Shown in pieces: positions 10,408 to 20,429 of a stretch of 20,429 nucleotides of DNA. The position numbers and the translations under genes were made by a program. The DNA lies in the IMG/VR virus record IMGVR_UViG_3300033153_003960, positions 1 through 20,429 of that record; one strand, written 5' to 3'. Below the pieces are notes generated by a model that saw only the letters and a list, made by a program, of their open reading frames with translations, ran no database searches and was not told the origin of the DNA. The stretch comes from a virus. Each line of letters begins with the position of its first letter. Position 1 is the stretch's first letter.

Positions 10408-12528
10408 ATGGTTCAAGAGTATCTTTCCGCAGGTGTTTATGGTTTAGAAGTTGCTCCAGCCTCTACCCCTGCTGCTCTGTCTCCTGCGATTCTTGCGATG
10501 GTGGGATGGACAGACAAAGGGCCGACGAACGACCCGATACGTGTAAACGGTGTCGAGGAGTTTACCAGGCGCTTTGGCGACATTAACACCACCGGCATCA
10601 TGGCGTTGTCCAGTCGTGGCTTCTTCGGCAATGGCGGACAGGATTTGGTCGTCGTCAGGGTTGCGCCATCAGACGCAATTTCATCGACAATCGATGTTTT
10701 GAGAACCGCACCGCCAGGAACTCGTTGGACCTTCACGGCCCAAGGAGAGGGTGTGTGGGGTGATGCTCTTGCCGTGTTGATTCGAGGCAATAATAACTTT
10801 CTGGACCGGACGACCGGCAGCTACACCCGCTATGACGTGTTGGTTCTCGAACCGTTTTCTTTTGATACCAGCATTGAAGTGGCAGTGGAAGTTTACGAAG
10901 CTGTCCAGTTCGATGACCCTGCTGCTTCCAATTATTTTCCGGACGTTATCAACGATGACCGCGCCCCTTCCCAACTGATCGACGTTCTCGTCGGCGTTGG
11001 TGGGACGCCGGACGAACTCGCTGGCGCAACCATCCTTCTCGAAACTGTCGTTGCCTCGGCGGCTGCTGTCCTGAATCAAACAGGGACGCTGGCCGCAGTG
11101 CCTGCACTTGACCTGACCGTGGTCTTGTTGGCTGATACCGGCGTTTCGTCCGGTGCCAACTTGCTCCATACGGACGTCGGCGGTGTCGTTCACGACCTCG
11201 CCACGACCCCGATCACCGTCGCACTCGGTATCTACCCAGGAACCGGAACACTCTCGATCGACATCGGCGGTGGCCCGCAGACCCAGACCGACGACGGCGC
11301 AGGGGCATTCCCGATCACGGCGGAACTACCGGCTGGCGGAACGATCGACTACGCGACCGGAGCTTTGACGGGTGTGACAGCCGCTTTGGTCGCTGCCTCG
11401 ACGATCACTGAGACCCACGATACGGCTTTGGTCGTGACCGACGACGGACTCGGCAACCTGATCGGCGATATTGATCTCGGCGGGACCAACACCATTGACT
11501 ACACGACCGGCGCTTTCGACGTGGACTTCGCGACGGCACCGGTCGTCACCACGGTCATTTACGCGTCCTACCGCAACCTTCCGACCGAAGCGCGCTTTGA
11601 TCTAACAGGTGGAAATGATGGTACGGCTGTTGGCCGCGCCAATGTTTCAGACCCTGCTATCGAAGCTTCGGAGCTTGGTATCTACGCTCTTGATCGTTTC
11701 GAGGAACCCGTCAATCTGGTCGTTCCTGACTTCGAGGGTTCGACCTTGGTGCAGGGTGATCTCGTGGCATTTGCCAAGGAGCGGGATGACCGTTTCTTGA
11801 TTCTCGGAATGAGCAATGGGGCTACAGTTGCCCAGGTTGTTCAGTACGTGCTTACTACTCAGGCTGGTATCTTCGATGAACGCATCGGAGCATTCTACTG
11901 GCCGAACGTGCGCTTCGTGCGGCAGGACACCGACACGGTTGAGACTGTGCCTGTGACACCGTTCGTGGCTGGGGCCTACGCTCGGACTGCTGAAAACAAG
12001 AACATCGGCAAGGCTCCGGCTGGAGTCGCTGACGGGGCTGTTAGTGCTCCTGGTGTTGTTGGTCCTGAGCTTGATCTTAATCAAACCGATAGAGATACGC
12101 TCTACCAAGCGCGTATCAACCCTGTTTATCGATCACTTGCGACTGGTTATGCTGTTTGGGGCGCTCGTACACTGTCTTTGGAAGCTCGGTGGCGATATGT
12201 CAACGCACGTTTGCTTCATAATTTTCTTATGTTCCGTATAAGACGGCTCTTAACTATTCAGGTGTTCGAGAACAACGGACCTACGCTCTGGACGCAGGTC
12301 CAGCAATCGACGAGTGGTTATATGGACTCACTTTTTGAGCAGGGGTTCTTCGCTGGTAACACGTCAAACGAGGCTTATTTCGTTAGGGCTGATGCTACTA
12401 ATAATAGTCAGGCTACGTTGAAAGAGGGTAAGGTGTTCTTGGATGTCGGGTTTGCACCCAATACGCCTGCTGAGTTCATTATATTCCGTCTTCAGCAGCC
12501 TGTGACGACGGTTACTACCGGAACCTGA
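10408..12528 (+). CDS. Tail sheath protein (T4 gp18-like)
   Basis: The product has 706 residues, from the ATG at 10408 with AGGAAAGG upstream. It has the family's N-terminal signature (YLSAGVYGLEVAP...VGWTDKGPTNDPIRVNGVEEFTRRFG) and the conserved C-terminal domain (residues ~560-700: VWGARTLSLEARWRYVNARLLHNFL ... LWTQVQQSTSGYMDSLFEQGFF). The C-terminal domain carries the strands that link neighbouring subunits in contractile sheaths. Between roughly residues 265 and 398 lies an extra beta-rich domain with two similar units of 50-residue period (TDDGAGAF...IDYATGA and TDDGLGNL...IDYTTGA). That segment uses G/C-ending codons, while both ends of the gene prefer T-ending codons, so it looks transferred. 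The tail tube genes follow directly. Sheath contraction drives the tube through the host envelope. Confidence 0.93.
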   Translation: MVQEYLSAGVYGLEVAPASTPAALSPAILAMVGWTDKGPTNDPIRVNGVEEFTRRFGDINTTGIMALSSRGFFGNGGQDLVVVRVAPSDAISSTIDVLRTAPPGTRWTFTAQGEGVWGDALAVLIRGNNNFLDRTTGSYTRYDVLVLEPFSFDTSIEVAVEVYEAVQFDDPAASNYFPDVINDDRAPSQLIDVLVGVGGTPDELAGATILLETVVASAAAVLNQTGTLAAVPALDLTVVLLADTGVSSGANLLHTDVGGVVHDLATTPITVALGIYPGTGTLSIDIGGGPQTQTDDGAGAFPITAELPAGGTIDYATGALTGVTAALVAASTITETHDTALVVTDDGLGNLIGDIDLGGTNTIDYTTGAFDVDFATAPVVTTVIYASYRNLPTEARFDLTGGNDGTAVGRANVSDPAIEASELGIYALDRFEEPVNLVVPDFEGSTLVQGDLVAFAKERDDRFLILGMSNGATVAQVVQYVLTTQAGIFDERIGAFYWPNVRFVRQDTDTVETVPVTPFVAGAYARTAENKNIGKAPAGVADGAVSAPGVVGPELDLNQTDRDTLYQARINPVYRSLATGYAVWGARTLSLEARWRYVNARLLHNFLMFRIRRLLTIQVFENNGPTLWTQVQQSTSGYMDSLFEQGFFAGNTSNEAYFVRADATNNSQATLKEGKVFLDVGFAPNTPAEFIIFRLQQPVTTVTTGT

Positions 12529-12540
12529 TAGGAGACATTC

Positions 12541-13068
12541 ATGGCAAGAGGAATTCAGACTGACCCATTTCAGAATTTTCGGTTTCACCTCATTGATTTA
12601 GCAGTAGCTGATACGGGGAGTAAACCGTTTTTTGATAAGGCCGCTGGCTTTATGTCGGTCACTTTACCAAACATTACGCTTGACCCTGCTGAATACAAAA
12701 CAGGTATCATGAAGTTCAAGCAGAAGTTTCCTGGTCCACCGACCATTGCTGACGTGTCGTTGACGCAAGGAATCTTCCGTGGTGAGAGCCCGCTCTACCA
12801 GTGGGTTCTGGACATTGTCAACGGTGGCGTGAGCTACCGGCGTGATCTTGCTCTTTACCACTATCATATTCAGGATAGTCCGACCGACCAGCCTGCACGG
12901 ATTATCCGGCTTATGAATTGCTGGCCGACCGACCTAAAGCCCAACCCGGACTACGAGGCGAACAGTAGTGACGTGTCGATCTTGGAGATGACGCTGGCCT
13001 GTGAGCAGTTCACGATCATACGCGGTAACCAAAAGGTTCTTTCAGGCGGGCACGACAAAACGCCGTGA
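12541..13068 (+). CDS. Tail tube protein 1 (T4 gp19-like)
   Basis: The product has 175 residues, from the ATG at 12541 with AGGAGA upstream, 12 bases after the sheath stop. It follows the T4-gp19/tail-tube family: 'DPFQNFRFHLID' at the N-terminus, a first strand pair with 'FMSVTLPNITLDPAEYK', 'TIADVSLTQG', then 'SPLYQWV' and a terminal 'NCWPTDLKPNPDYEANSSDVSILEMTLACEQF'. Length is typical of the family. It should form the hexameric rings of the inner tube around which the sheath assembles. A second paralogue follows 20 bases downstream. Confidence 0.9.
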   Translation: MARGIQTDPFQNFRFHLIDLAVADTGSKPFFDKAAGFMSVTLPNITLDPAEYKTGIMKFKQKFPGPPTIADVSLTQGIFRGESPLYQWVLDIVNGGVSYRRDLALYHYHIQDSPTDQPARIIRLMNCWPTDLKPNPDYEANSSDVSILEMTLACEQFTIIRGNQKVLSGGHDKTP

Positions 13069-13088: not shown

Positions 13089-13661
13089 ATGGCGCGTTCT
13101 GGGGTATCTGATCCTCTTCAAAATTACTCATTTGCTTTGCGGGAACTAGCGAGCCCGCCCGTGGGTAATAATCCTCTTCTTAGCGCACCTGTCCTTGGTG
13201 AAGACGGTAGTACTAGCCTTATAGGTTTTCAGTCAATCTCGATGCCAGACGTTACGCTGGAACTAAAGGAAGTAAATGAGGGTAATTGGCCTCATATTCA
13301 TAAGGTCCCGATGACGCGGATGACTACTGGCGACGTAACTTTGACTAAAGCCTTGTATCCTAAGAACTCTGACTTTAACACTTGGATATTTCAGTCTGTT
13401 TGGGGTCGCGGATCGGTAAGGCGTAGTTTTGTAATAGTTCATCTTGCACGTTATCACGGGGCTCAGATTGGCGAGGATCATTTTGACAGTGGACGGTTTA
13501 TTCATATCCATAACTGTTTGCCTGTGTCGTGGAAACCGGGGTCAGATTTAGAAGCGAATTCCAGCGACGTGTCACTTGAGGAACTGACTATACATGTTGA
13601 GCGAATATCGCTGGAGAGAGTCTCACCTTCCCAAGACCTTGGGAACATTTTCGATATTTGA
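13089..13661 (+). CDS. Tail tube protein 2 (gp19-like paralogue)
   Basis: The product has 190 residues, from the ATG at 13089 with a weak TAGGCT site. It aligns along its length with the upstream tube protein: MAR...DPLQNYSFALREL, FQSISMPDVTLE, TTGDVTLTK, NTWIF and NCLPVSWKPGSDLEANSSDVSLEEL, with the EANSSDVS string identical. It has an ~11-residue insertion near the N-terminus (NPLLSAPVLGE) and an extended C-terminal tail. Such a pair can mean a main tube protein plus a specialised ring (baseplate initiator or tube end). Which copy is the main tube cannot be told from sequence alone. Its codons are more T/A-ending than those of tube 1. Confidence 0.87.
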   Translation: MARSGVSDPLQNYSFALRELASPPVGNNPLLSAPVLGEDGSTSLIGFQSISMPDVTLELKEVNEGNWPHIHKVPMTRMTTGDVTLTKALYPKNSDFNTWIFQSVWGRGSVRRSFVIVHLARYHGAQIGEDHFDSGRFIHIHNCLPVSWKPGSDLEANSSDVSLEELTIHVERISLERVSPSQDLGNIFDI

Positions 13662-14340: not shown

Positions 14341-14376
14341 ACGAAGAAAAAGCCCCTCACGGGGCCGTTCCTTCGT
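14341..14376. terminator. Bidirectional terminator between convergent gene sets
   Basis: A GCCCC/GGGGC stem (14352-14356 and 14361-14365) is flanked by outer pairing ACGAAG/CTTCGT. Read on the minus strand it is followed by TTTTTCTTCG, a good terminator. On + the tail is less T-rich. It ends the + operon and the minus-strand unit, and the stop codon of the minus gene (14357-14359) lies in its loop. Confidence 0.75.
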
Positions 14377-14527
14377 ATTTGTCCCGATACTCAACTTTCG
14401 TTGGCGGTCCAAATAGTTCGATAAACATAACCAGGTCTCTTTGGAAATCTGGCGTCTCGCTGTTTAGGTAGCCGCCCCACTTCGGTCGCTCCGGATCGAA
14501 CCATTCGACGAATATTCTTGGATACAT
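14357..14527 (-). CDS. Small 56-residue protein (g1), unknown function
   Basis: The gene starts at the ATG whose first base is 14527, with a strong GAGGAGG five bases upstream on the minus strand. The 56-residue product (MYPRIFVEWFDPERPKWGGY at the start) is rich in aromatic and acidic residues. Its stop codon lies in the loop of the terminator at 14341-14376, as for the genes ending at 15597 and 16806. That shared design, the ribosome site and the otherwise empty stretch support a real gene. No family is recognised; it is the last gene of the third minus-strand unit. Confidence 0.7.
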   Translation of the reverse strand: MYPRIFVEWFDPERPKWGGYLNSETPDFQRDLVMFIELFGPPTKVEYRDKYEGTAP

Positions 14528-14569
14528 TGTTCCTCCTCAGAAAACAATTGTGTCGCGCCTTATCGCGCT

Positions 14570-14598
14570 CATCGACGAAAGGCCCCCGAAGGGGCCAA
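14570..14598 (-). terminator. Intergenic hairpin with CATC...AAGGCCCCC box (between g2 and g1)
   Basis: GGCCCC/GGGGCC stem (14581-14586 with 14591-14596) is followed on minus by CTTTCG. The repeated box occupies 14570-14587. It lies right after the stop of g2 and may act as a partial terminator or an RNA processing/stability element, since no promoter is visible before g1. Confidence 0.65.
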
Positions 14599-14600
14599 GC

Positions 14601-15059
14601 TCACGGCGTCTCACCGTTTCTCGCTTTGCGGCTGAAAGCCACGCAGCGATCCATCGTCTCGCTGTCGAGCCCTCTCAGCGGCTCCTCACGGTCCCACTGG
14701 ATTGGCAGAGCAGCGAATTCGCTCGCCCAAAGGATTGCTACGGCCTTCCTGCCGATGCAGGTAGTAGCCGCGAGCCCGCTGTGACGGTGCGTTACGGTCC
14801 AAGGCCCACGAGTCTCCCCCCAAGCGCGATGCACCGCGAAGTGTTCGCCCACCGGGATAGCTTCGATGATCCGTTCGGGCAGATCCTTCGCAGTCGCCAG
14901 CTTGAGCATGAAGCTCTTGCCGCTGGCTATCCGCTTGGCCTTGCCCTCCGCGACCTTCTCACGAAGGAATTTCTTCACTTCTTCGACATCGCCGTCTTCC
15001 AGCTTTCGCAGGAGTTTCGCCATTGTCGAGTCAGTGATTGATACTGTTTTGGTTGCCAT
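14601..15059 (-). CDS. Unknown 152-residue protein (g2)
   Basis: The gene starts at the ATG at 15059 with GAGGAG upstream, inside a 70-bp leader shared with g5. The N-terminal ~50 residues are a charged helix pair (MAKLLRKLEDGDVEEVKKFLREKV). The C-terminal half (GPWTVTHRHSGLAATTCIGRKAVAILWASEFAALPIQWD) looks like a small alpha/beta domain. 'VTH..(S/T)G' followed by an Ala-rich helix and 'LP..W' is a pattern I have met in small phage proteins of unknown role. It has no membrane segment. A large + strand frame over the same bases has no ribosome site and is rejected. Confidence 0.65.
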   Translation of the reverse strand: MATKTVSITDSTMAKLLRKLEDGDVEEVKKFLREKVAEGKAKRIASGKSFMLKLATAKDLPERIIEAIPVGEHFAVHRAWGETRGPWTVTHRHSGLAATTCIGRKAVAILWASEFAALPIQWDREEPLRGLDSETMDRCVAFSRKARNGETP

Positions 15060-15116
15060 TTTTGACTCCTCAGTCTAGCGGGGCAGAATGCCCTGCAACA
15101 TCGACACAAGGCCCCC
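15047..15116 (-). repeat. 70-bp leader repeat, copy A (start of g2)
   Basis: These 70 bases match 16737-16806 at 68 positions. The repeat spans the first four or five codons, the ribosome site (GAGGAG, in the loop of a GACT/AGTC pair), a GGGCA-TTC-TGCCC hairpin (15081-15093) and the CATCGACACAAGGCCCCC box. A diverged third copy precedes g6 (17031-17093). Confidence 0.9.
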
Positions 15117-15127
15117 GGTCGGGGGTC
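15107..15127 (-). terminator. Hairpin upstream of g2 leader
   Basis: CCCCCG/CGGGGG stem (15112-15117 with 15120-15125, two-base loop) is followed on minus by CCTTGTGT. It includes the end of the repeated CATC box. Only 15 bases separate it from another hairpin at 15141-15170. Confidence 0.55.
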
Positions 15128-15140
15128 TCTGTACATAGCC

Positions 15141-15170
15141 AAAGGCCCCCACGCAACAAGCGCAGGGGCC
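15141..15170 (-). terminator. Second hairpin between g3 and g2
   Basis: GGCCCC...GCGC pairs with GCG...GGGGCC (15144-15154 with 15160-15170, imperfect in the middle) around a short loop, followed on minus by TTTGG. With 15107-15127 it forms a double hairpin. No gene fits in the gap 15171-15267, which also holds a CCGGG/CCCGG pair near 15236-15250. Confidence 0.6.
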
Positions 15171-15267
15171 GATGACCTCAGACAGAGGAGGGGTATATTG
15201 AAAGGGCTTTGCACCCTATTGAGGATCATCACTGGCCGGGTTGCCCCGGTCTAAGCTCGTATCCTTA

Positions 15268-15543
15268 TCAGCTTATTTCAAGCTCCAGGCGCTGAACGCC
15301 TGTAGAGCAACGGATCTCGTCGATCAACGAGATGAGGCGTTGAACGCCTATGTTGCACCGACACCCCGCGTACTCGAAGTCGACAGCGAAGTCGCCATTA
15401 TCGAGCAAATCGCGCAGCCCGACCAAGACTCGGTCGAACTGTTGTAGTTCGTCGATCTCGATCCCTTTGGGGGTCTTTTCGCCGCAAGAGAAGCAGCTTC
15501 TGCTGTCCTCTGCGATGAACTTTTCGCAAGTTTGGCAAATCAT
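15268..15543 (-). CDS. Small zinc-ribbon-like protein (g3), unknown function
   Basis: The product has 91 residues, from the ATG at 15543 with GGAGGG upstream. The N-terminus has two CxxC pairs, C3-C6 and C17-C20 (MICQTCEKFI...CFSCGEK), a compact zinc-ribbon spacing. A helix then follows (IDELQQFDRVLVGLRDLLD), then DFEYAGCRC and a C-terminal part with GVQRL twice. The DNA for the C-terminal part has three neighbouring inverted repeats (15287-15349). The fold could bind nucleic acid or protein. No family is recognised. Confidence 0.65.
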   Translation of the reverse strand: MICQTCEKFIAEDSRSCFSCGEKTPKGIEIDELQQFDRVLVGLRDLLDNGDFAVDFEYAGCRCNIGVQRLISLIDEIRCSTGVQRLELEIS

Positions 15544-15579
15544 TCAGCCCTCCAAGGCTCTTGAAAGCATGATTGCTCC

Positions 15580-15608
15580 CATCGACACAAGGCCCCCTAT
15601 GCGGGGGC
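15580..15608 (-). terminator. Hairpin at end of g4 with stop codon in the loop
   Basis: GCCCCC/GGGGGC stem (15592-15597 with 15603-15608) has a five-base loop that contains most of the g4 stop codon (15597-15599). On minus it is followed by CCTTGTG. The repeated CATC box is 15580-15597. Confidence 0.65.
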
Positions 15609-15821
15609 TGCGACGATCTCCTTTCGGAGAAGCTCAGGAGTGTCCTTCCCGAATGCCTTGCCGTCTTCAGTGAAGACGTAAAGCTGGATGTTGTCTCCAG
15701 CCTTGTAGCTTTGCTCGACGTCAATGTGGAACGTAAGTCCTGGGAAAGCCCGAAGCCCGAAGGTCCCAGGGAACTTTGCCGCAGCTTTCGCCACGGCTGC
15801 TACTTCTTCTGTAAAAGTCAT
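15597..15821 (-). CDS. Small 74-residue protein (g4), unknown function
   Basis: I chose the ATG at 15821, with GAGGAGG six bases upstream, over an upstream ATG at 15866 that would lie in the conserved leader. The protein is soluble: an Ala-rich helix (EEVAAVAKAAAKF), then strands (FGLRAFPGLTFHIDVEQ, IQLYVFTEDGKAFG) and a short helix (TPELLRKEI). The gene is first in the unit that conserved element P1 should drive. No family is recognised. Confidence 0.65.
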   Translation of the reverse strand: MTFTEEVAAVAKAAAKFPGTFGLRAFPGLTFHIDVEQSYKAGDNIQLYVFTEDGKAFGKDTPELLRKEIVAAPA

Positions 15822-15853
15822 TATTCCTCCTCTGCGATGGACCATTCCATCTA

Positions 15854-15922
15854 CCCCTATCATCAAACCCTATCGAGTTATCAGATTGGGAGTATAAGTC
15901 CTTTAGAATTAAGAACTTAAGC
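15854..15922 (-). promoter_or_regulatory. Conserved upstream element P1 with dyad (before g4)
   Basis: The 69-base element is nearly identical to P2 and similar to P3. Its core is a 25-bp dyad at 15895-15919 with arms TAAGTCCTT and AAGAACTTA, flanked by a conserved stretch (CCTATCATCAAACC..., then GAGTTATCAGAT). On minus it contains TATACT (15891-15896), a possible -10, next to the dyad. I infer a promoter with an operator; no clear -35 is seen. Confidence 0.6.
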
Positions 15923-15949
15923 CATCAACGAAAGGCCCCCGAAGGGGCC
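15923..15949 (-). terminator. Terminator at end of g5 (unit B)
   Basis: GGCCCC/GGGGCC stem (15934-15939 with 15944-15949) with a CGAA loop is followed on minus by CTTTCG. The CATC box is 15923-15940. It lies between the g5 stop and P1, so it probably ends unit g7-g6-g5. Confidence 0.7.
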
Positions 15950-15954
15950 AAACG

Positions 15955-16749
15955 TCAATACCCGCTCCACTGCTTCGCCCTCTCAACGAACTCGCCGTCA
16001 AGCGAGCAGTAGGGGCATTTGCCTTCGGCGTCGACCCCGCGAACGGGGCTCACGCTGCGATTGCAGTCGATGCATTCAAGCGGAGACATTTCCTGCTTGA
16101 ATACCTCTCGGCCCTTCTCAGAGAGGGCCATGCGGTTGTAGTTCTCGCCGCTGAAGATATGGCTCACGAGACGCTCAACGCGCTTCGTGATCTCCTCTTT
16201 CGTCGGCTCGGTCTTCGACCACGAGCAGCGCAGGGAAGCTGTGACAGCCTCCTTGAACCCTTCCCGCGCGGCGTCCTTCAAGGCTTCTTCGTTTCCGAAG
16301 TAGCCATTCAGAGCCTTCTCGTAAGCCTCTCGCCCAATGAGCGGGAGGCTGTCAAGCAGGTCGCCGTAGCCGTCGTCGCCACGACCTTCGACCGTCTCGA
16401 ACAGCGGCTTGTAGAGAGCCGCGCTCTTGGCTTCGTAGGTCTTGGCGAATCGCATGTAGATCGAGGCTTTTTCTTCGCCCCGCAATTCCATGCGGCACGA
16501 GAGATTATGCGCGCTGGCTTCCGTGTCGCGTCCGCCGACGATCGAGGAAAGAACCTCTTTCCTATAGCGTGGAAGGATGCTCCAGAACTCGTCGTCGGTC
16601 AGCAACTCCAGACTTGCCTCAAGGCGAATCATGGAACGATTGAACGCAGCCGTAGCAATGACCAACGCCCGCGCCATAGCGACGTGGCCCGCTGCGTCGA
16701 GCTTGGCTATCAACCACTCCTCATTCTCAGGATCAATTTTGGTTGTCAT
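15955..16749 (-). CDS. 264-residue protein with C-terminal zinc ribbon (g5), unknown function
   Basis: The product starts at the ATG at 16749 with GAGGAG upstream, within the 70-bp leader also found at g2. The first ~215 residues are mostly helical and charged (for example DEFWSILPRYRKEVLSSIV, AAREGFKEAVTASLR, EEITKRVERLVSHIF). Near the C-terminus CIDC and, 17 residues later, CPYC make a four-cysteine zinc-ribbon-like site (LECIDCNRSVS...GKCPYCSLDGEF). This is the largest gene of the island. A 198-residue + strand frame opposite is a shadow, lacking a ribosome site. No family is recognised. Confidence 0.7.
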   Translation of the reverse strand: MTTKIDPENEEWLIAKLDAAGHVAMARALVIATAAFNRSMIRLEASLELLTDDEFWSILPRYRKEVLSSIVGGRDTEASAHNLSCRMELRGEEKASIYMRFAKTYEAKSAALYKPLFETVEGRGDDGYGDLLDSLPLIGREAYEKALNGYFGNEEALKDAAREGFKEAVTASLRCSWSKTEPTKEEITKRVERLVSHIFSGENYNRMALSEKGREVFKQEMSPLECIDCNRSVSPVRGVDAEGKCPYCSLDGEFVERAKQWSGY

Positions 16750-16806
16750 TTCTGACTCCTCAGTCTAGCGGGGCAGAATGCCCTGCAACATCGACACAAG
16801 GCCCCC
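16737..16806 (-). repeat. 70-bp leader repeat, copy B (start of g5)
   Basis: These 70 bases match copy A (15047-15116) at 68 positions, the differences being in the first codons and just before the ATG. The hairpin GGGCA/TGCCC is at 16771-16783. The near-identity across a 1.7 kb gap suggests recent duplication or gene conversion. Confidence 0.9.
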
Positions 16807-16818
16807 TATCGGGGGGCT
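16789..16818 (-). terminator. Hairpin at end of g6 with stop codon in the loop
   Basis: GCCCCC/GGGGGC stem (16801-16806 with 16812-16817); the g6 stop codon (16806-16808) starts the loop. On minus it is followed by CCTTGTG. The CATC box is 16789-16806. It probably acts as a partial terminator or processing element, since g5 has no P element of its own. Confidence 0.65.
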
Positions 16819-17033
16819 CTTGCGCGATCAATCGCGTTTCTACTCTTTGCGTCAGCGATCAGCCTGCGCCTGTCCTCGGCGGAAAGCCGATGACGGCCCT
16901 TGACGTATTCCGGAAAGACGTTTGAATACGTCCCCTGATGTTCTCTACCGAAGAACACGCTTGCTTCCCAGCTATAACCCCAGCGGTAATCTTCCCACTG
17001 GTTGAGCCTGATCGACCATCTTTTGGTAGCCAT
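16806..17033 (-). CDS. Small basic, aromatic-rich protein (g6), unknown function
   Basis: The product has 75 residues, from the ATG at 17033 with GAGAGGG upstream; a longer upstream extension would run through the preceding hairpin and is rejected. The start MATK is shared with g2 and forms part of the same duplicated leader. The N-terminal half is rich in Trp/Tyr (SIRLNQWEDYRWGYSWEASVFF minus a few residues) and suggests a small beta sheet. The C-terminal half is a basic helix (SAEDRRRLIADAKSRNAIDRAR). No family is recognised. Confidence 0.6.
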   Translation of the reverse strand: MATKRWSIRLNQWEDYRWGYSWEASVFFGREHQGTYSNVFPEYVKGRHRLSAEDRRRLIADAKSRNAIDRARAPR

Positions 17034-17093
17034 CTCTGGTCCCTCTCTGTTGTAGCTGGGCGGAATGCCCTGCAACATCGGCGCAAGGCCCCC
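17031..17093 (-). repeat. Diverged third copy of the leader repeat (start of g6)
   Basis: It shares the TTGGTAGCCAT start region, a GGGCG-GAA-TGCCC version of the hairpin (17058-17070) and TGCAACATCG-GCGCAAGGCCCCC with the two 70-bp copies, but differs around the ribosome site. Confidence 0.7.
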
Positions 17094-17104
17094 AGGAAGG
17101 GGGC
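17085..17104 (-). terminator. Hairpin after g7
   Basis: GCCCCC/GGGGGC stem (17088-17093 with 17099-17104) with an AGGAA loop follows the g7 stop by five bases. The minus-strand tail CCTTGCG is weak, so readthrough into g6 is likely. Confidence 0.55.
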
Positions 17105-17109
17105 GCGGG

Positions 17110-17427
17110 CTACACAGCCCAGTCCATTGCTCCGACCTCGCCGCCGCAATCAGGGCAGCGAGGGGAATCCTTCTCGTCGCGCTCAACGTCGCCGCCGTCC
17201 ACGTATTGGGACCAGCCGCAGCGCATTCGCTTGGCGATCGGGATATGCTTGCAAGTCTTCCGAAACTGGAAGCCCTTGCATTCGCACTGCCAATCCCTCT
17301 GGACTGGCCCGAAAGGCACCGGGCCGAAGCTCACGATGTAAACTCCCGTTTTGCTCGACGGAACGTTTACCTCGAAGTACTCGAACTCCTTGCAGTGCCA
17401 ATAACTCACGGGAATTAAGTCAGGCAT
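17110..17427 (-). CDS. SWIM-type zinc finger protein (g7)
   Basis: The product has 105 residues, from the ATG at 17427 with GAGGAGG upstream and conserved element P2 before that. Residues ~48-61 (CECKGFQFRKTCKH) match the SWIM zinc finger CxCx(n)CxH with n = 8. SWIM domains bind nucleic acids or proteins and occur in transposase-associated, Rad5/16-like and homologous-recombination proteins. A second Cys set follows (RMRCGW...RCPDCGG), giving at least three further cysteines, perhaps a second knuckle. The N-terminus is beta-rich (GVYIVSFGPVPFGPV). It probably binds nucleic acid or a host protein. Its target cannot be told from sequence. Confidence 0.75.
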   Translation of the reverse strand: MPDLIPVSYWHCKEFEYFEVNVPSSKTGVYIVSFGPVPFGPVQRDWQCECKGFQFRKTCKHIPIAKRMRCGWSQYVDGGDVERDEKDSPRCPDCGGEVGAMDWAV

Positions 17428-17446
17428 GGTTAGCCTCCTCTCCTAT

Positions 17447-17514
17447 CCCTATCATCAAACCCTATCGAGTTATCAGATGGGGAACGTAAGTCCTTTAGAA
17501 TTAAGAACTTAAGT
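17447..17514 (-). promoter_or_regulatory. Conserved upstream element P2 with dyad (before g7)
   Basis: It is nearly identical to P1, including the same 25-bp dyad (17487-17511, arms TAAGTCCTT and AAGAACTTA) and the GAGTTATCAGAT block. P1 and P2 differ between block and dyad (TTGGGAGTA versus TGGGGAACG). It should drive unit g7-g6-g5. Confidence 0.6.
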
Positions 17515-17542
17515 CATCAAGAAAAGGCCCCCAATCGGGGGC
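17515..17542 (-). terminator. Terminator after g8 (unit A)
   Basis: GCCCCC/GGGGGC stem (17527-17532 with 17537-17542) is followed on minus by CTTTTCTTG, the best T-tract of the set. It lies between the g8 stop and P2. The CATC box is 17515-17532. Confidence 0.75.
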
Positions 17543-17548
17543 TCTTTC

Positions 17549-17908
17549 TCAGTTGTCGGTCGGTTGCGCCCCGCCGAGAGCAGCAAGGATTTGGGGAATC
17601 TCCAAAGCGGAGAGTCCGACAGTCTTCTCACCCTTCGTTGCCGTGACCAGCAAAGGCCCGACGAGATGGGTCTGATGCCCGCTAGCGTGAGTCAGAACGA
17701 CGTTGAGGGGCATTTGCTTCAGCAATCCCTCTTCGTTGACCCAGACACTCACAGTCTCGGAGAAGTCGTCGTTGGACTTGAGCGTTACGCGCTCGATGTA
17801 GCCCTTCACGGATTTCGACATAAAGTCGTAAGGGATCTCTCCGTCCGAAGACGGCTCGACGTCTACGATTTTTGGGGCTTCCCCCGGATTCTTAGTAATG
17901 ACCTGCAT
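17549..17908 (-). CDS. DUF3846-like protein (g8)
   Basis: The product has 119 residues, from the ATG at 17908 with AGGAGG upstream. The sequence follows the DUF3846 layout: an N-terminal strand with 'PGEAPKIVDVE', a short helix, 'VKGYIERVTL', then 'VWVNEEGLLKQMPLNVVL' (the conserved NEeGkl...lplN), and 'LVGPLLVTATKGEKTVGLSA' (the G-x-(V/L)-(V/L) strand). DUF3846 proteins are frequent in phages and plasmids and have no established biochemical role that I know. It is a single-gene unit driven by P3 and ended by the terminator at 17515-17542. Confidence 0.7.
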   Translation of the reverse strand: MQVITKNPGEAPKIVDVEPSSDGEIPYDFMSKSVKGYIERVTLKSNDDFSETVSVWVNEEGLLKQMPLNVVLTHASGHQTHLVGPLLVTATKGEKTVGLSALEIPQILAALGGAQPTDN

Positions 17909-17944
17909 GGCAGACCTCCTCTGCGAGGGATCATTCCCTCTGTA

Positions 17945-18015
17945 CCTATCATCAAACCCTAGCGAGTTATCAGATGGGGAACGTAAGTCATTGAAAACAT
18001 TAGACTTATACTCCC
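17945..18015 (-). promoter_or_regulatory. Conserved upstream element P3 with extended dyad (before g8)
   Basis: It keeps the CCTATCATCAAACC and GAGTTATCAGAT blocks of P1/P2. The 25-bp dyad (17984-18008) has a different centre but kept arms TAAGTC and GACTTA. The symmetry continues outward: GGGAACGTAAGTC on + mirrors GGGAGTATAAGTC on -. The second half-site equals the left flank of P1. A divergent operator serving both g8 and the + genes at 18134 is plausible. Confidence 0.6.
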
Positions 18016-18033
18016 GCCATCGGGCCTTTATTT
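18013..18033 (+). terminator. Weak terminator-like hairpin, + strand
   Basis: A four-base CCCG/CGGG stem is followed by CCTTTATTT. The stem is short, and no + gene ends here, so it may only be a remnant of a cassette boundary or part of the operator region. Confidence 0.25.
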
Positions 18034-18083
18034 GGTAGGATTATGTTTATTCCAGGGCGTTTCTTAAATCCCTTCTTGCATTT

Positions 18084-18133: not shown

Positions 18134-18574
18134 ATGGTGGCAGCAGGACAGTCGGTTAGGTTGAACTTTCAGATCACGACGGAGGCGGAGACGCGTATCA
18201 GTGATTATTGTAAAACGACTGGTCGTTCAGCTTCTGATATTGTTCGGCAACTTGTCAGCGAATACCTAGACGGGTTCCGAGAGCTAGGCCCCAACGTGCC
18301 TGCGCTCAACGGGCGGCGCACGAACTGCACTCTCCCTCCTCGCATGGTAACTAAACTTGACATGCGTGTGAGAGCTATCGGACCGGGCGCTTCCAAGGGC
18401 CTGGTTATTAGTAATTTGCTGGAGGATTGGAAACCCGACAACGTAGTCGCTTCCAGATTACTGGCTAATTTAGTTGGGGCAATCAGGCACCGTGGGGGGC
18501 CTGACAATTCCGTATACCAGAGGGCTTTAACAGACGCTGAGATTTATCTCAGGCGAGGATCAGAAAATGACTGA
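18134..18574 (+). CDS. Ribbon-helix-helix (CopG/Arc-like) DNA-binding protein
   Basis: The product has 146 residues. The ATG at 18134 has AGAGGGG just upstream and is chosen over a TTG at 18083, which would place the dyad 18084-18100 inside the gene. Residues ~9-50 (VRLNFQITTEAETRISDYCKTTGRSASDIVRQLVSEYL) fit an RHH domain: a short strand, helix A, a 'tGrS' turn and helix B. A second similar unit follows (residues ~66-100: CTLPPRMVTKLDMRVRAIGPGASKGLVISNLLEDW), so the protein may carry two RHH motifs in one chain. RHH dimers bind short inverted repeats. It begins the right + operon and overlaps the next gene by eight bases. Role as a regulator of the island is inferred. Confidence 0.65.
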   Translation: MVAAGQSVRLNFQITTEAETRISDYCKTTGRSASDIVRQLVSEYLDGFRELGPNVPALNGRRTNCTLPPRMVTKLDMRVRAIGPGASKGLVISNLLEDWKPDNVVASRLLANLVGAIRHRGGPDNSVYQRALTDAEIYLRRGSEND

Positions 18575-19469
18575 AGAGAGAACCACCATGTCGGAGGTAG
18601 CATCATTGCAATCCGAGATGGCTGCAATGAATCAAGAGAGCGACCTGCGTGTTCCCGTGTTCGGGCACTCATCGGAGGATTTCAAGCTGCCTTGCGGCTA
18701 CGTAGATTCCAGTGGCAAGTTACATAACATCGTGGTGATGCGCCAAATGACTGGTGTCGAAGAAGACATGATGGCTAACGATAATCTTGCTGTTACAGAG
18801 AGGGTGCGGAACATTCTGCGCTCGTGCTGCGATAAGATTGGCGACATCGACGACCCGAAGATCGTGATCGCGGCGTTGGAGGACAACGGTGACCTGCCCA
18901 AAGGCGCTCTCCCTGTGACAGCGGCTGATAGGCTCGCAATGTTGTTGTTTCTGCGTATCGTGTCAGTAGGCAACACCTACCGTTACGACACGACTTGTCC
19001 GCATTGCGACAAGGAAAACAAAGGCAACATGATCGATCTCCGGACTTTGGATATAAAATATGTTGACGACCCCACCAAGCGGGTCGGCAAAGTCAAGCTG
19101 CCTCGCTCCGGGGTCGAAGTGTCTTTGAAGATCTTAACAGCGAAGGATGAGGTTGAAGTATCGAAGCTTAATCCGAATCAAGCCAATGCGCGAACCTTGG
19201 CTTTGATGGCTCGGATCGTGACCATTGGTGGTAAACCGCTTCCGCCGCAATTCGCGGGGATAGAACTCGTAAAGCAGATGCCTTATCAAGACAGGATTTA
19301 CCTTCGTAAAGTCTTCGATTTCATGGAAGGGGCTATTGATACGGAAATTGAGGTTGTTTGTTCTAAGGCGGCCTGCGAGAAGATTTATAAATTCTCGTTA
19401 GATCTGGGTCAGGTTTTTTTCTCGCCGCAAGGGGATACGGTTACGCAGGATTCGATCGAGTGGATGTGA
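18567..19469 (+). CDS. T4-baseplate/gp26-like tail assembly protein (chaperone, zero-frame product)
   Basis: The product has 300 residues, from the ATG at 18567 with GAGGA upstream (a second ATG at 18588 is possible). It opens with 'LPCGYVDSSGKLHNIVVMRQMTGVEEDMM', the 'LP.G...v.vr.mtG.eE' start seen in gp26/gp51-type baseplate proteins and in tail chaperones. CPHC at 144-147 and C265/C270 form the expected four-cysteine zinc site of the T4_baseplate family. The position directly before the tape measure gene matches the gpG-type chaperone of other phages. At 19415-19421 the T UUU UUC-type heptamer (T6C in zero frame T TTT TTC) would allow -1 shifting into the next ORF. The stop overlaps the next start region. 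Confidence 0.75.
   Translation: MTEERTTMSEVASLQSEMAAMNQESDLRVPVFGHSSEDFKLPCGYVDSSGKLHNIVVMRQMTGVEEDMMANDNLAVTERVRNILRSCCDKIGDIDDPKIVIAALEDNGDLPKGALPVTAADRLAMLLFLRIVSVGNTYRYDTTCPHCDKENKGNMIDLRTLDIKYVDDPTKRVGKVKLPRSGVEVSLKILTAKDEVEVSKLNPNQANARTLALMARIVTIGGKPLPPQFAGIELVKQMPYQDRIYLRKVFDFMEGAIDTEIEVVCSKAACEKIYKFSLDLGQVFFSPQGDTVTQDSIEWM
19415..19421 (+). promoter_or_regulatory. Candidate -1 programmed frameshift site
   Basis: A run of seven T (19414-19420) followed by C gives the heptamer T TTT TTC in the correct register (zero-frame codons GTT TTT TTC). The -1 frame is open from here through 19678. This is a classic X XXY YYZ site just before the end of a tail-chaperone gene. Confidence 0.6.
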
Positions 19470-19678
19470 GAGGTCCGAGGTTCTCCTCGTTTCTCCCTCT
19501 TGGCGACAATCAAATTCTGGAAAGTCATATTCTCTTTTTCGCAGAAGCGTACAATTGGTCGGCGGACCAAACGCTGCGGCTTGACTCCGCCCGTCGTTTT
19601 CGTCTTGTCTCGCGGCGATCAGCTATCATTGAGGAACGCAACAGAGAAATTAGGGCTCAGAACGCAAGAAGGCGGTGA
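19460..19678 (+). CDS. Tail assembly chaperone, second frame (GT-like extension)
   Basis: As a free ORF this encodes 72 residues, from GTG at 19460 (AGGA at 19447-19450) or GTG at 19466, overlapping the stop of the previous gene. The frame extends upstream without a stop to the heptamer at 19415, so the natural product is probably the fusion of the 300-residue protein's first part to this segment. The sequence (ILFFAEAYNWSADQTLRLDSARRFRLVSRRSAIIEERNREIRA) has the 'hxxaxxxxwsxxxhxxLxxxxxxxhh' helix pattern of second-frame chaperones. Its C-terminus is a basic helix. It ends at the tape measure start (GTGATAGTG). Confidence 0.7.
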   Translation: MDVRGPRFSSFLPLGDNQILESHILFFAEAYNWSADQTLRLDSARRFRLVSRRSAIIEERNREIRAQNARRR

Positions 19679-19680
19679 TA

Positions 19681-20028
19681 GTGGCTAGTAGTATTGCATT
19701 TGATCTTCAGGGTGAACTCGATATTGATTCGAGCAGGGCTGTTAATTCACTCAATCAAGTCGCTCGTACTGCTAGCAATATATTCAGTGGTGTAAACTTC
19801 AAAGAAGTCAAGCAAAGCATGAGCGCAATGCAGAAGGAGATGGTCGCAGAAGCAAAGAAGACTAGGAAAAAGGAACGAAAGGCGCGTAATCAAGACGCGG
19901 TGCTAGCCCAGGAGGACTGGACGAACGTTAAAGGCACTGTGGGTGAGATCTGGAAGGATTTGTCTCGCCTTCCCCGCGCCGCCCAGTTCACGGTTGACAA
20001 GCTCCAAGCTCAAGGGCAACTACATTGA
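19681..20028 (+). pseudogene. Tape measure protein, N-terminal part (frame interrupted)
   Basis: The frame starts at GTG 19681 (GAAGGCGG upstream; GTG 19675 also possible) and encodes 115 residues before TGA at 20026-20028. The N-terminus (SIAFDLQGELDIDSSRAVNSLNQVARTASNIFSG) is the 'fdltaeldids...l.q...' start typical of tape measure proteins, followed by charged helix (KKTRKKERKARNQDAV). The tape measure sets tail length and lies after the chaperones, as here. The frame breaks at a perfect 7-bp tandem duplication (19998-20011). Removing one copy joins '...TVDKLKGNYIDIKTEF...', a natural continuation. It may be a real lesion, an assembly artefact or an unusual recoding site. Confidence 0.65.
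19998..20011 (+). repeat. 7-bp tandem duplication that breaks the tape measure frame
   Basis: CAAGCTC occurs twice in a row (19998-20004 and 20005-20011). It adds seven bases, moving the frame from position 1 to position 2. The downstream frame is open to the window end. Confidence 0.9.
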
Positions 20029-20429
20029 CATCAAGACCGAGTTCAATGAAGCCGACTTCCAGAAGGCAATTGCAGGCGGCCAAGAGTCTTTGGATGCCTT
20101 CGCTGAGTCCTTTTCTGCGGCTCTCAAGGCAGACGCCGAGTCCTACAGTGGTGACGAACGACTCGCTGCGTATGCAGGGGCGGCGTCAGAGGCTCAGGCA
20201 TACCGCAAAGCTTTAGAGGAAGTTCGCAAGCAAGCACGAAAGAATTCAGACGGTACTGAGGAATATGCCAAAGGGTTGAAGGATCTCGACGCTTCCTATG
20301 CCAAAGCTTTGAAAACTCAGCGAATCATGAAAGGAAAATCCGTTATCAAAGGTGGCGGCATCTACGCCAACGAAGACGACCTGACGACGATGGCGAAGGA
20401 CATCATCCCCAAGATTGGCGAAGCTTGGG
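20006..20429 (+). CDS. Tape measure protein, continuation in second frame (3' end outside window)
   Basis: This frame (codons starting at 20006, 20009 and so on) has no stop to base 20429, and the open frame reaches back to 19907. It encodes at least 141 residues: KLKGNYIDIKTEFNEADFQK, then long Ala/Glu/Lys-rich helix (SFSAALKADAES, AAYAGAASEAQAYRKALEEVRKQ), as expected of tape measures. The only candidate start near its beginning, TTG at 19994, has no ribosome site. It is therefore best read as the rest of the gene that starts at 19681. The true gene continues beyond the window. Confidence 0.7.

Follow-up and report, generated by a model that had tools for sequence, protein, structure and literature searches.

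A predicted -1 frameshift at a conserved poly-T heptamer and the short and long tail assembly chaperones of T4-type phages

In the window, by which we mean the whole stretch of viral DNA analysed here (20,429 nt; IMG/VR record IMGVR_UViG_3300033153_003960), the gene for a T4-baseplate-type protein ends over a second open frame that runs on to the start of the next gene. Do ribosomes pass from the first frame into the second by programmed -1 frameshifting, and what is the protein that would be extended in this way? An earlier note on this DNA had proposed that a shift at a poly-T heptamer joins a baseplate-type protein to a chaperone in the second frame. From the sequence and its comparison with other phages, we consider it very probable that the window encodes a short/long pair of tail assembly chaperones, the long form being made by a -1 slip at 19415-19421. 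The features in question are:

18567..19469, plus strand: gp26-like T4_baseplate (PF12322) gene, 300 aa with four cysteines, presumed short tail assembly chaperone (TAC-N); from Pfam, PHROG and alignment.
19415..19421, plus strand: slippery heptamer T TTT TTC, in register (GTT TTT TTC); from direct reading and a register check, and kept in relatives.
19421..19678, plus strand: -1 frame extension (TAC-NC part), 85 aa past the shift, ending with TGA at 19676-19678; from translation, with an equivalent domain in relatives.
19460..19678, plus strand: alternative GTG-started reading of the extension frame, 72 aa; from the mechanical list of open reading frames.

The 300-aa protein passes the Pfam cut-off of PF12322 (T4_baseplate; 32.1 bits vs 24.5, residues 55-271) and matches PHROG 150, baseplate hub, at 1.1e-9. 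Its cysteines C144, C147, C265 and C270 form two pairs that are invariant in 11 aligned members of PF12322, T4 gp26/gp51 being among those aligned; it had thus been described correctly as a four-cysteine protein of the T4-baseplate type. T4 gp26 and gp51 each match PF12322 over the full length of the profile, and gp51 carries about 48 extra C-terminal residues relative to gp26. A review of the T4 tail describes gp26 and gp51 as hub assembly chaperones and gp51 as absent from the particle (PMC3004832). Judged by these relations, the "baseplate protein" of the window would itself be the short, G-like chaperone and not a partner that is fused to one, and the -1 frame is best read as adding a C-terminal domain that gives the long, GT-like form. 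Of the original proposal, the frameshift stands as the best reading in view of the relatives, but the division into a baseplate protein and a separate chaperone does not. The identity to the proteins of jumbo phages and of S-BM1 is only about 14-27%, and the window gene is a deep-branching new member of a family already known. Searches based on the sheath gave a 97% relative (L025) and relatives at 50-52%, none of which holds the gp26 gene, and no close relative of the window with this gene was found; in 392 genomes of one bacterial phylum there were only four PF12322 matches. Neither the sequence nor the fold comparison with the PDB yielded a usable match. A model of a fused relative from IMG/VR, L001, reached a pLDDT of 75 and had no PDB match at E <= 0.001; its fold matches were other gp26-type proteins, such as that of SP-15, and its extension is modelled as three helices.

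The T run of the slip site spans 19414-19420 and is followed by a C at 19421. In the gene starting at 18567 the codons are GTT (19413-19415), TTT (19416-19418) and TTC (19419-19421), which is the X XXY YYZ register, in agreement with the claim that the heptamer lies correctly in the 300-residue gene. The second claim, that the -1 frame runs without a stop to 19678 through a small open reading frame, agrees with our reading as well: no stop interrupts this frame between 19391 and the TGA at 19676-19678, and it takes in the GTG-started frame at 19460-19678. The predicted fused product has 370 aa, 285 before and 85 after the shift, and the short product 300 aa. The stop of the extension overlaps the next GTG start at 19675 (GTGA). 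Could such an arrangement arise by chance? A strong slippery heptamer turns up in about 6% of synonymous shuffles of the gene, and a given frame stays open for 206 nt beyond the stop in about 5.5% of Markov sequences, and the combined chance of both is ~0.003, a figure that, for one gene chosen out of the whole window, is suggestive and not decisive. In-register X XXY YYZ heptamers are found eight times among the 5,043 codons of the window, and one of the eight is T TTT TTC. The case for a frameshift therefore rests on conservation in relatives, which goes far beyond chance.

An in-register T TTT TTC was indeed found at the 3' end of gp26 in Paride (a relative of PA5oct), Atu_ph07, Phosso, XaC1, CBB, Munch, Vibrio phage 2.275.O, Hallingskeid, BF, SCTP-2, 121Q, RaK2 and the metagenomic LR756511, and CM1 gp26 has T TTT TTT at the slip position. 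In about a dozen jumbo-phage lineages the heptamer lies at the identical Phe-Phe and the -1 frame, which stays open for a further ~150-225 nt, leads into a homologous small domain. The arrangement recurs in ten IMG/VR loci that were retrieved with BF gp26, some of which duplicate isolates such as BF and CBB, and in three relatives of LR756511, two of them near-identical. Alignment with related phages, put forward in the earlier note as a check, is thus in favour of the frameshift: heptamer and open frame are kept in jumbo phages, in LR756511-like contigs and in the cyanophage S-BM1. The expectation that such a site would be less usual on a protein of this type was not borne out, since it is present in every T4-like jumbo phage read and in one cyanophage. 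In database records the extension of these relatives is annotated as a separate hypothetical protein or omitted.

Among the many cyanophages with gp26 relatives, S-BM1 is the one that was read for a slip site. Its gp26 ends with AGT TTT TTC GCG TAG (L063 2040-2252), and its annotated "gp51", of 31 residues, is the last part of a -1 frame whose opening lies upstream of the heptamer. Cyanophage gp51 was described as having only ~20% of the length of other gp51 proteins and as resembling their C-terminal region (PMC3037559), which would be explained by the end of the -1 frame seen in S-BM1. Short cyanophage "gp51" genes in general may be unrecognised frameshift extensions.

Downstream of the heptamer, the window shows no significant RNA structure (z +0.4 to +1.7), and searches of it for Rfam families and tRNAs found none. 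In Atu_ph07 an extremely stable stem-loop is predicted directly after the slip site (L011 2323-2400; -31.8 kcal/mol, z -5.9) and is a good candidate stimulator, and LR756511 has moderate RNA structure after its heptamer (z -2.7).

It is conceivable that the extension is a separate small gene that is started at GTG 19460, from its own ribosome-binding site or by re-initiation or coupling close to the upstream stop, and that the T run is coincidental. The 72-aa frame has an AGGA about 9 nt upstream of its GTG, in Atu_ph07, Phosso and 121Q an ATG lies across or next to the stop of gp26, and several of the relatives with the extension in the +1 frame, discussed below, have an ATG near the junction. 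We nevertheless regard a separate gene as improbable. The -1 extension of Paride has 73 codons without any ATG, GTG or TTG. In other phages the conserved -1 reading starts at the slip site, well ahead of any ATG: the first start codon comes 12 codons after the site in CBB, BF and SCTP-2, 14 in Munch and 30 in RaK2, and the residues in between (RxxLLxxEPEEI) are conserved. Moreover, the heptamer is kept though the preceding residue varies, as the codon before Phe-Phe ends in T in 23 of 23 loci, which are partly non-independent, and encodes eight residues across them (V, S, H, N, Y, D, R, G). Finally, some phages have the short and the long form as two genes, the long copy being in frame. T4 has them as genes 26 and 51, both with PF12322 and without a slip site, and T4-like Straboviridae carry both genes; in L001 a short gp26 comes first and a long copy, in frame, second, and in phage NCTB (L053 1596-3310) two gp26-type genes stand in tandem just ahead of the tape-measure gene, the short one first. 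Such two-gene phages keep Phe-Phe in the short gene and lose the site (GAG TTC TTT in T4 gp26, AGC TTC TTT in NCTB). Taken together, the start-free extension of Paride, the conserved residues ahead of the first start, the T-ending codon and the two-gene phages without the site argue for a -1 frameshift over a second start.

The surroundings of the gene are those of a contractile tail, as suggested by a sheath gene and two gp19-like tube genes upstream of the gp26-like gene:

10408..12528, plus strand: tail sheath gene (Pfam Phage_sheath_1, 4.1e-10; PHROG 23, 4.5e-60).
12541..13068, plus strand: tail tube protein, gp19-like (Pfam Phage_T4_gp19, 3.4e-18).
13089..13661, plus strand: second tail tube-like protein (Pfam Phage_T4_gp19, 1.3e-14).
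19675..20028, plus strand: start of the presumed tape-measure gene, overlapping the extension stop; by position, in comparison with SP-15, LIS04 and immuto.

The next large gene after the extension is an annotated tape measure in LIS04 and immuto and a putative tail protein in SP-15. About 750 nt of the presumed tape-measure gene lie inside the window, with a broken frame. It is split over two frames (19943-20428): the frame opened at 19675 stops at 20028, while the +1 frame carries the coding signal further (IDIKTEFNEADFQKAI...). The break, near 20000-20028, has no obvious slippery site and looks like an indel or a damaged gene, and single-base assembly errors are therefore possible in the window. 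Could the T run of the heptamer be such an error, the true gene being one long open reading frame or one copy of a two-gene pair? The run has seven Ts, and the second frame break is only ~600 nt downstream. This explanation is nevertheless very unlikely, since the same heptamer is found at the same place in complete, independent isolate genomes and in several metagenome contigs, and errors would not keep producing T TTT TTC in register.

Further upstream, small genes on the minus strand interrupt the tail operon at 14357-18036, between the tube genes and gp26. This block contains a 97-nt repeat in three copies (15851, 17443 and 17940), an intergenic 84-nt repeat in three copies and a 29-nt hairpin-like GGCCCCC element in six intergenic copies; possibly, it is an inserted module with shared promoters and terminators.

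The extensions of different phages are related to each other. In profile comparisons, two extension sets from jumbo phages were linked with an E value of 8e-9, one jumbo set matched the LR508/immuto set at 6e-7, and the SP-15 set matched the LR508/immuto set at 4e-9. The C terminus of T4 gp51 matched the Slickus extension at 6e-6 and the S-BM1 extension at 1.6e-5. Against the combined extension profile it gave 2e-4 with a score of 25.0, compared to a maximum of 20.3 among 318 decoys, which were single sequences, so that the comparison tilts slightly toward gp51. The extension of the window aligned with the combined profile in the expected register with a marginal score of 15.4, equalled by 5 of 250 decoys, and with the RaK2-type set alone weakly (E 0.02). 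DUF6760 (PF20546) was considered as family of the extension and rejected (12.1 bits vs a cut-off of 27). The weak conservation of the window's own extension would fit a genuine slip site whose -1 product is tolerated as a by-product, the frame-0 product being the only one of importance, but this is hardly credible, as the extension is conserved across phages and is kept as a full gene copy where the frameshift is absent.

In a further group of relatives it is the +1 (equivalently -2) frame that encodes the extension. These are SP-15 (a Bacillus phage), LIS04 (Listeria), GXN1 (Streptococcus), immuto (Flavobacterium), Mel-JY01 (Microcystis), LR756508, Slickus01, L044 and L058. The first five share with the window the order of sheath, tube and gp26 and the homologous extension before the tape-measure gene, and differ from it in the frame of the extension and in having no -1 heptamer. 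Extensions in this frame follow gp26 at:

L049 2135-2440: +1 (or -2) frame extension.
L024 2141-2431: +1 (or -2) frame extension.
L004 4605-4928: +1 (or -2) frame extension.
L058 1936-2196: +1 (or -2) frame extension.

A conserved NCC CGA was at first a candidate for the +1 slip site in SP-15, LIS04 and GXN1. It was discarded, as L058 does not have it and the residues of the +1 frame may explain it. With an ATG near the junction, several of the +1-frame extensions were possibly started independently there. We lean slightly towards the view that the gp26 and extension domains are joined in three ways: by -1 slippage on T TTT TTC, by +1/-2 shifting, or as separate short and long genes.

The slippery heptamer of phage lambda is G GGA AAG, unlike the T TTT TTC of the window. 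The arrangement is like that of lambda G/GT, where a short gene before the tape measure undergoes a -1 shift near its 3' end that gives a longer second-frame product (PMC5009743). The comparison is one of arrangement; the gp26-type protein is mixed alpha/beta, has four cysteines and is about twice as long as lambda G. The same review, from 2016, describes G-T frameshifting as shared widely among long-tailed phages "except T4" (PMC5009743). By description, the window also resembles phage 0305phi8-36, whose gp143/gp144 is a published short/long chaperone pair made from two genes (PMC2147016). RaK2, 121Q, CBB, Munch, Paride and S-BM1 share with the window T TTT TTC at the same Phe-Phe and the -1 extension. 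T4 gp26/gp51 share with it the PF12322 domain and a long form with a related C-terminal domain, but T4 has two genes and no slip site, whereas the window has one gene and a -1 site.

Tail assembly chaperones of T4-like phages were reportedly identified by Vladimirov, Gautam & Davidson 2022 (Virology 566:9-15). A passage of PMC10885494 cites this work on the short and long copies of the gene that T4-like phages carry, and a passage of PMC12846349 cites it for poly-T slippery sites in T4-like TAC-N genes. From the sequence relations we infer that the T4 pair named there is gp26/gp51. In view of these citations, the link of T4 gp26/gp51 to frameshifted chaperones is not new, and the mechanism is known in kind. 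To this the window contributes a deep branch, and our survey may contribute the +1 forms, the case free of start codons and the two-gene phages as natural controls.

How would the pair work in the window? Translation of 18567-19469 would give the short chaperone, in a phage with a contractile tail of the T4 type. Some ribosomes, probably a few percent as in lambda, would slip back one base on T TTT TTC and read the -1 frame to 19678; their product, the long form of 370 aa, would carry the additional C-terminal domain. If the two forms behave like lambda G and GT, the tape-measure protein would be coated by many copies of the short form and few of the long one, tail-tube subunits would be brought in by the additional domain, and short and long forms would leave before the tail is completed. 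Slip site, register, open frame, conservation and domain relations are seen in the sequences; slippage in the cell and its rate, the chaperone role, the action on the tape measure and the departure are inferred. If the numbering follows the GenBank record, CBB_250/249 are absent from the published list of 55 CBB proteins; the GenBank record itself labels CBB gp250 "structural protein".

This reading would settle how a gene pair is to be annotated that appears in many jumbo-phage records as a baseplate hub protein next to a hypothetical protein without relation to it, and in one cyanophage record or more with a truncated gp51. It also brings together, for T4-type phages including T4 itself, the ways in which short and long tail chaperones are produced. 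If the +1 cases are true frameshifts, the mode of decoding was switched in evolution at one and the same junction, and the family would be a natural experiment in the gain, change and loss of recoding.
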